From: Periplaneta americana
Taxonomy: Eukaryota; Arthropoda; Insecta; Blattodea; Blattidae
Direction: 5' to 3'
DNA length: 64,000 bases
Assembly (NCBI RefSeq): GCF_040183065.1
Contig: NC_091132.1
Location: 161,904,602 to 161,968,601 of the forward strand
Of the stretch, positions 41,601 through 44,600 are shown piece after piece. A program made the translations under genes and the position numbers. Under the pieces are notes generated by a model that ran no database searches, was not told the origin of the DNA, and worked only from the letters and a program-made list of their open reading frames with translations. Within the stretch, counting starts at the first letter, position 1, and each line of letters starts with the position of its first letter.

Positions 41601-44600
41601 AAATAATTTTATGGTAAGCTTTGTCTTTTAGGCAGCCTCCACTTAGAAGAAGTTCAATAGAACCAAAGTTGTACAGAACATACAGTAAAACACTTGGAAA
41701 TAAAACAATAAATCAGTAATTATTATGTTGTTTGTTTTACAGGAAGGAAATGAATTAGATCTGCACATGGCCGAAATAAAGACGGAATGTATGGATCACA
41801 GCTATGATCTGAAATCAGAGATGACATTTGAGGAATCTCCTGTGCCAGCAGGCTTTCCCGTCATGAAAAGCGAGGCGGAGGTGAGTGTGTTGGTCGGTAT
41901 TTCTCTCTCTATTACCTACCAGCAGATGTGACTGCTAGACTGACGTCACCACCGAAACGATTTCTGCTCTCATCTGTCCAGTTCTTTGTCCTCTATTTCT
42001 TCGTGAATTTGTTTCACTCAATTTTTCTCTTAGAGACTAATGCTGAAAATTTACTAAATCATATCAGTTTTGAATTTTTTAATCATTATTGCTAATTCTT
42101 ACAATATCCACTTCTACTGGATTTTAATTGACAGTCCAGTATAAAGTTAGCCGGTGGTTGATAGTAAACTTGTCTTTTCTGCGTGGTGTAGGGAATACAG
42201 TTAATTAGGTTTCTTTAATTTTTCTTTCCAAATTCCTTTGATAGTTGAAATCCACATCATTGATGCCTATTTATTGTGACGTCAGTAGTTGGCAGATATG
42301 CATGAACGTCACAATTCACAATGATTATTTCAGAGTATTGGTGGGATGTGCTTTGAAGACTTGTGAATCTGACTGTGTGAGAGGTTTGTCACTGGATTCT
42401 AGAGTTCCAAAATCACAGCTCCAACATACCAATATCTCTGCCTGATATGGGACTCACAGTGGTAGCGACTGTTGTACGTATAAATGACAGCTTCAATGTC
42501 CAGACAGTTGCAAGTCACATAGTTATGTTGTAGGTCAACACAAATGAGATCTAATTTATATTGTTTCAACTCAAAAGGTTGACGTCGGTAACTCTTTGTT
42601 AGTGAAGCTATGGAGTCGCTATATTCTTCCATGAATGCTTCTCTTAATCATTCGCAAATATTCTTGAACGAATGTAGATGCCCACATATGGCGATGACCG
42701 TTGTGAGCGTCTTTTTTCTTCAGTTTGCACGCTGAGCTAATCACTATTGTTCACATAAAGCAAGGCACTGGCATATCAATTCAGTTTTCTGAAGAGTGAT
42801 AAAGATAAACATCTCTCTGCTCACACTGTACAACAAATTTGAACTTTGTGTCTGCCCTTTAGATGAAAGTGTGTGATTCTGTATAAACAAAAGGTGCTTA
42901 ATTCATATCTGAAAACCAAAATGGTCCATCATGTACCCTTATTTTAGGAGACACGCTTTTCATATGTATACAGATTGGTCAGAGAGAAAATTAACAGCGA
43001 CTCTCATTACGGAAAACACGTACACTAAAATGATTTTTTTGGCCGTTTCCGCTTGTAGGCATCTGGTGGAGTGTCCCTGATAGTAGACCAACAATATTCA
43101 GCTAGCATACTTCCATTCCATCGTCCACTGAAGCGCTTTTCAAACATAGCAATGTCCTGGTGGAATCTTTCGCCATGCTCATCACTAACTGCATCTGGTG
43201 GAGTGTCCCTGATAGTAGACCAACAATATTCAGCTAGCATACTTCCATTCCATCGTCCACTGAAGCGCTTTTCAAACATAGCAATGTCCTGGTGGAATCT
43301 TTCGCCATGCTCATCACTAACTGCATCTGGTGGAGTGTCCCTGATAGTAGACCAACAATATTCAGCTAGCATACTTCCATTCCATCGTCCACTGAAGCGC
43401 TTTTCAAACATAGCAATGTCCTGGTGGAATCTTTCGCCATGCTCATCACTAACTGCATCTGGTGGAGTGTCCCTGATAGTAGACCAACAATATTCAGCTA
43501 GCATACTTCCATTCCATCGTCCACTGAAGCCCTTTTCAAACATAGCAATGTCCTGGTGGAATCTTTCGCCATGCTCATCACTAACTGCACCCAGGTTTTG
43601 AGGGAAAAAATCTAGATGCGAGTCCAAAAAGTGTAGTTTTAAAGACATATTGCAGCCTATAACACGAAAGCATTTCACCATGTCACGAACAAGATCTTCA
43701 TAGTTTTCAGCTTTCTCGTTTCCAAGGAAACTTGAACATACTGATTTAAATGCCTGCCAGGCTGCTTTTTCTCCTTCTGATAGTTTAATTTCAAAGTCTT
43801 CGTCATGCATGACTGATTTAATTTGTGGGCCAATAAAAACCCCTTCATTTACCTTTACCTCACTTAAACTTTTGAATTTGTTTCTGAGATACAAGAAGGC
43901 TAACCCTTCTCTGTCCAGCGCTTTTACAAAAATTTTCATTAAACCAAGTTTAATGTGCAATGGTGGAAGAAAGACATATTGCGGATTCACAAGTGGTTCA
44001 TGAGATATGTTTTTGGTGCCAGGAATGTAGTTCTGTCGTGGAGGCCACTGTTTACGGATGTAGTGACTTTTTCTGTCACGACTATCCCATTCACATAGGA
44101 AGCAGCAGAATTTAGTGTATCCTTGTTGCATGCCTGTTAATATCCCAATAACTTTTAAGTCTCCGCAAATGTGCCATTTGAATGTAGAGTAGTCAATTAA
44201 TTTCAATATAGCACTCATTACCTCATATGTTTCCTTGGTATTTACAGCATTATATGCTATAGGAACAGAGGGAAAAACATTGCCTATATGGAGGAGTACT
44301 GCCTTTAGACTACGTTTGCAAGAGTCAATAAACAGGCGCCAGTCTCCTACAATGTGTTCGTGTCCCAATGCCTGAAATAACCCATTACATCACAGCAATA
44401 AATAATGCCTTCTTTCTCCGCAAAATAGTGCCGAAAATTGCTTTGTCGTCTTCTAAATGAATGCTGGAATTATGGTATGATCAACCTGGCAGTGAATGAT
44501 TGATGTAGATATATATTTCTGAATGTGTCTAAATCTATCCCTGCACTGAAAATGTTTGATAGAAGAAGCAGGATATTCGAAAAATAATTTACATTAAGGA

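Follow-up and report, generated by a model that had tools for sequence, protein, structure and literature searches.

Transposons of the Chapaev type end in CAC/GTG and duplicate 3 to 4 bp of their target (PMC4079192). PMC4411706 places the Chapaev3 group (Kapitonov and Jurka 2008, as cited there) alongside Transib and RAG1 and describes a Chapa zinc finger at its N-terminus; examples of the group are Garfield, Merrow and Conan (PMC4079192). The Chapaev3 elements examined in the latter paper duplicate TWA between a 5' A and a 3' T, and the motifs C(2)C, LH and H(4)H are given for Garfield, which is 2,289 bp long and has a protein of 556 aa. Both Garfield and Merrow consist of two exons, a split that most other Chapaev3 elements lack in the account given there (PMC4079192). 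We analyzed a 64,000-nucleotide stretch of the Periplaneta americana genome (the window). An element of 1,941 bp at 42824..44764 is very probably a non-autonomous copy of a Chapaev3-type DNA transposon, within the Chapaev/Transib/CMC clade of DDE transposases, an assignment made feature by feature from published descriptions rather than by alignment to a named Chapaev3 protein.

The element is an internal-deletion derivative with its coding strand on the minus strand. Its perfect 12-bp inverted ends, CACTGTACAACA, lie at 42824..42835 (plus strand; the 3' end relative to the ORF) and 44753..44764 (minus strand; the 5' end), and these two exact matches are the only ones in the window. Directly beside them are the left (42821..42823) and right (44765..44767) copies of a TCA target site duplication (TSD), so that the ends and duplication described in the initial annotation are both present. 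Further in, subterminal arms at 42842..42880 and 44718..44756 (both given on the plus strand) form an imperfect inverted repeat, 74% complementary. The flanks of the element, when joined, align across the junction to two paralogous segments of the window, 22306-23736 (84% identity) and 61760-62200 (87%). Each has one target triplet at the junction: ATA at the first empty site (23365..23375) and TTA at the second (61822..61832; both bounds approximate). These single triplets in two junction-spanning segments, which bear out the two empty sites noted earlier, indicate that the insertion was exact.

Other features of the window were recognized by eye from translations. Long frames of C2H2 zinc-finger repeats occur at 7536-8795, 25123-26055 and 47604-48500 and seem to form a tandem cluster of related genes that surrounds the element. 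A 230-codon frame at 1299-1991 (minus strand) has the look of a Tc1/mariner-type transposase, and two very similar frames (37367-37780 and 55364-55813) resemble the RNase H region of a LINE.

The element contains an open frame of 454 codons plus stop (43025..44389, minus strand), beginning at 44389 and ending with its stop at 43025, which corresponds to the catalytic region of a transposase without its N-terminal region; the 447-codon frame first reported is contained in it. ATG is absent near the 5' end. A remnant from the N-terminal side, equivalent to residues 184-213 of the longer relative L016, lies in a different frame at 44460-44371. Within the frame, four 132-bp units stand in tandem and in frame (43059..43589, minus strand), each with a 10-residue motif that includes the presumed catalytic E; there is one mismatch among all four, and three of the units are extra. 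A genome query with two units listed 41 places (40 of 324 candidates scored), two of them the window itself, and all 39 others in this listing match a single 132-bp unit. The fourfold repeat, which adds 132 codons to the window frame, represents either an expansion private to this copy or an artefact of the assembly. The frame most likely represents a decaying pseudogene, and the copy, best read as a non-autonomous relic, is probably dead.

The genome to which the window belongs (3.23 Gb, 91 contigs) was searched with 312 residues of the protein. This gave at least 128 protein matches, mostly in groups of about 95%, 60%, 55% and 50% identity, with some at 76-92%, and we examined the best 30 loci (L009, the window copy, to L038) together with 16 more distant ones. 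Both terminal inverted repeats (TIRs; ≤2 mismatches each) are present in 28 of the best 30 loci, the window copy included, the exceptions being L018 and L021; 25 of these 28 have an exact 3-bp TSD. One left flank is common to nine of these loci and another to two. The nine (L017, L022, L023, L024, L025, L029, L031, L032 and L033) have a 2.3-kb copy with the same insertion flank on several contigs, and apparently represent one insertion spread within a larger duplicated segment. Counting flank-sharing loci as segmental copies leaves 19 independent insertions, one of them the window's; an exact 3-bp TSD is present in 16 (in ORF orientation, TTA in seven, TAA in six, and TGA, TAT and ATA in one each). 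TWA makes up 13 of these 16 duplications, where the window background is 0.055 (P 2e-14). The base 5' of the TSD is A in 14/16 and the base 3' is T in 12/16, and the full A-TWA-T context is found in 10/16, against a background of 0.007. The window's own TCA falls outside the TWA rule, as do L014 (TAT), L037 (ATA), L039 (TGA) and L048 (ATA).

The 12-mer of the TIR, searched for by itself, occurs at 1,036 places in the genome, compared with 384 for the reversed pattern. This count is unfit as a copy number, because the eight loci returned have neither a partner end within the stretch nor similarity to the element, and two of them belong to an unrelated repeat. These two, L006 and L008, are copies (~94%) of a repeat with CACTGTACAACA in it but no similarity to the element; repeats of this kind inflate end-motif counts.

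The more distant loci have CACT-type ends of their own (CACTGGTCGACA/CACTAGTCGACA, CACTGGTCAACA/CACTGGACAACA, CACTACTCGACA/CACTGCTCTACA). An exact 3-bp TSD is found in seven of the 16 (L039, TGA; L042, TTA; L043, TAA; L045, TTA; L048, ATA; L053, TAA; L054, TAA), with ends that are of CACT type or one base off. The left end begins GACT in L048 and TACT, a weaker match, in L054, and single end mutations are seen in L010, L048 and L054. In the nine distant loci where an exact TSD is absent, both ends are present in L040, L044, L047 and L049, the left end is decayed in L046, and it was not recognized within the stretch fetched in L041, L050, L051 and L052. The search for further CACTG-ended copies that the initial annotation had proposed showed comparable ends and duplications in most of the copies examined, and CAC...GTG ends with a 3-bp duplication at many sites agree with its view of a cut-and-paste element. 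Protein identity between the window's subfamily (represented by L016) and the other subfamilies is 45-56%. Synonymous sites are saturated between subfamilies (pS 0.76-0.88) and pN is low (0.26-0.39), which indicates that the protein was under selection while the lineages diverged.

Copies that retain the N-terminal region are about 2.3 kb long (2,320 bp in L016). Two of those examined, L043 (556 aa) and L041 (560 aa), have a single uninterrupted frame that starts at the first M, whereas the opening residues of L016 and L039 fall in another frame. The N-terminal part of the longer relatives has three C-x2-C pairs (FCY-CG, C-SC and DCYFC), and three stretches from this part gave no informative Pfam hit in hmmscan. 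Conservation was scored in L016 numbering over 46 loci, a sample that includes the segmental copies and L016 itself. D229 and D284 are conserved in all 46 and E479 in 45, and the Chapaev3 motifs are kept in 41-46: C303 (45) and C306 (46), L351 (45) and its partner H352 (41), H460 (44) and H465 (46). A second candidate for the catalytic glutamate, E482, is E in 36 loci and K in 10. Two of the motif histidines are missing from the L041 frames. The GDLK and C-x2-C motifs pointed out at the start are both present and conserved among the aligned relatives. As to the RNase H-type core suggested with them, the motif set, judged from aligned sequence, is consistent with a CACTA/Mirage/Chapaev/Transib-type DDE core (PMC12730594, PMC4079192), but a single-sequence structure model of 312 residues is uninformative on the fold (mean pLDDT 32.9). 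The protein is most likely the transposase of the element.

Searches of Pfam and NCBIfam with the window frame, eight aligned sequences and the three N-terminal stretches returned no family above its cut-off. The window frame matched AlcCBM31 at E 0.0019 with 18.8 bits, short of the cut-off of 25, and, more weakly, four other Pfam models, all in or beside the tandem repeat and attributed to chance. Chance also accounts for BTG and GCR1_C (Pfam, the eight aligned sequences), YaaA (NCBIfam, one member, E 0.013) and a zinc ribbon (the N-terminal stretches, E 1.7). A sequence search of the PDB gave glycosyltransferase matches at E 0.03, which were discarded, and the family profile matched none of the solved structures, a comparison that covered RAG1 and Transib chains if these are present there. 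RAG1 was not matched in the genome, a result of little weight, as the control genomes were silent too; DUF1280 and Transposase_21 were likewise unmatched, with controls equally silent. No relatives were found in phages, plasmids, viral contigs or prokaryote contigs.

Short copies of about 1.5 kb, the class to which the window copy belongs, lack 774 bp of L016, positions 304-1077 or, because two bases are repeated at the junction, 306-1079. The deletion takes away approximately 182 codons from the start of the L016 frame, the zinc-finger region included. Its breakpoints are identical in 12 of 13 short copies (L020 differs on one side), and the flanks differ in all 13; the deletion therefore most likely arose once and then spread. 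Since the class was without its N-terminal region before it spread, full-length relatives most likely mobilized the window copy in trans. Frames of 345-454 codons are nonetheless still found in 6/13 short copies, and one might suppose that the truncated core is retained for a trans activity of its product, such as that of a repressor or a partial transposase. Pairwise pN/pS over the core, 0.47 among the 13 short copies versus 1.05 among six longer ones, points in that direction, but the method is crude and the samples are small. Variants are mostly singletons, and those of the short class show no departure from the neutral expectation (43/135 synonymous against 0.268, two-sided P = 0.21). In the longer class 9/56 are synonymous (P 0.07), and the two classes differ at P = 0.03 (Fisher), a difference that favors a trans-acting core. 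Constraint on the truncated frame, which the ratio of 0.47 had suggested, was dropped because the singleton spectrum shows no departure from neutrality, and the window frame has no ATG close to its start. Selection data of this kind are no good evidence for a function of the truncated protein, and we regard its retention for a trans activity as very unlikely. A related proposal, to which we give just as little credence, is that a Chapaev3-like lineage has amplified a catalytic-core-only derivative that lacks the presumed end-binding region, some cores remaining open. Such a core protein, if made, might serve as a natural dominant regulator of the parent element, and the window copy would then be a core version with four catalytic-E motifs.

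The remaining question is which lineage the non-autonomous element belongs to. A separate superfamily within the CMC/Transib clade, as yet without a name and sharing the 3-bp TWA habit with Chapaev3 by descent or convergence, would account for Pfam and NCBIfam models that all stay below cut-off and, with the silence of the controls in mind, for the lack of a genome match to DUF1280, which PMC3985635 equates with Chapaev. CMC lineages are, moreover, still being named (ESTA, CNEST and Lanisha; for ESTA, PMC12730594). We nevertheless consider a separate superfamily unlikely: published descriptions of Chapaev3 agree with what is seen here in the target rule, the ends, the size of the element, the length of its protein and the C(2)C/LH/H(4)H motifs, and it is on this agreement that we place the element there. 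The same agreement leaves without support the suggestion in the initial annotation that this might be a little-described system, since these features have already been published for Chapaev3. That annotation had leaned instead toward a classic CACTA/EnSpm (tnp2) element; the CACT ends and the 3-bp TSD would allow for this, EnSpm having CAC..GTG ends and a 3-bp TSD (PMC12730594). Transposase_21 (PF02992), however, matches 0/8 members at E ≤ 1 and, with controls silent, nothing in the genome, and the portions of the published EnSpm descriptions covered here do not contain a TWA target rule. The link to tnp2/EnSpm holds at the level of the clade only, and a classic EnSpm element is extremely improbable.

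For the Chapaev3-type element we infer ordinary cut-and-paste transposition of the Chapaev/Transib/CMC clade. By analogy with known members, the full-length transposase (~556-560 aa) would bind the ends via its N-terminal zinc-finger region. Cleavage would fall just outside CAC at both ends, carried out by a putative RNase H-type D-D-E center braced by a C2/H zinc site, and the freed ends would be joined to a target staggered by 3 bp, with A|TWA|T preferred. The passages covered from the literature on Chapaev3 and the Chapa domain hold no description of the element's protein family, and the name cc8L18.2, given in the initial annotation, has no mention in the literature searched. A repeated protein that Pfam does not recognize is now tied to a described transposon group, and in genomes of this kind such frames should be masked as transposases, not treated as host genes. 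The genome's several subfamilies with recognizable ends are useful for the study of Chapaev3, which is distantly related to the RAG recombinase.

Among neighboring systems, CACTA/EnSpm and ESTA/CNEST share the CAC-type ends and the CMC motif set. CNEST is reported to differ in its 2-bp TA duplications, CACGG ends and length of 7.2 kb, and ESTA likewise follows a TA duplication rule, in contrast to the 3-bp duplications found here. Transib and RAG1 fall in the same broad clade by motif order (the relation of the clade as outlined in PMC4411706 and PMC12730594), but Transib makes 5-bp duplications (PMC4411706), whereas those of the present element are 3 bp long and its empty sites exact. The closest likeness is to Chapaev3, in the CAC...GTG ends, the A/T-flanked 3-bp TWA TSD, the lengths of about 2.3 kb and about 556 aa, the C(2)C, LH and H(4)H motifs and the occurrence of internal-deletion derivatives. 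Unlike the two-exon Garfield and Merrow, L041 and L043 have their frames in one piece, as do most Chapaev3 elements in the description of PMC4079192.
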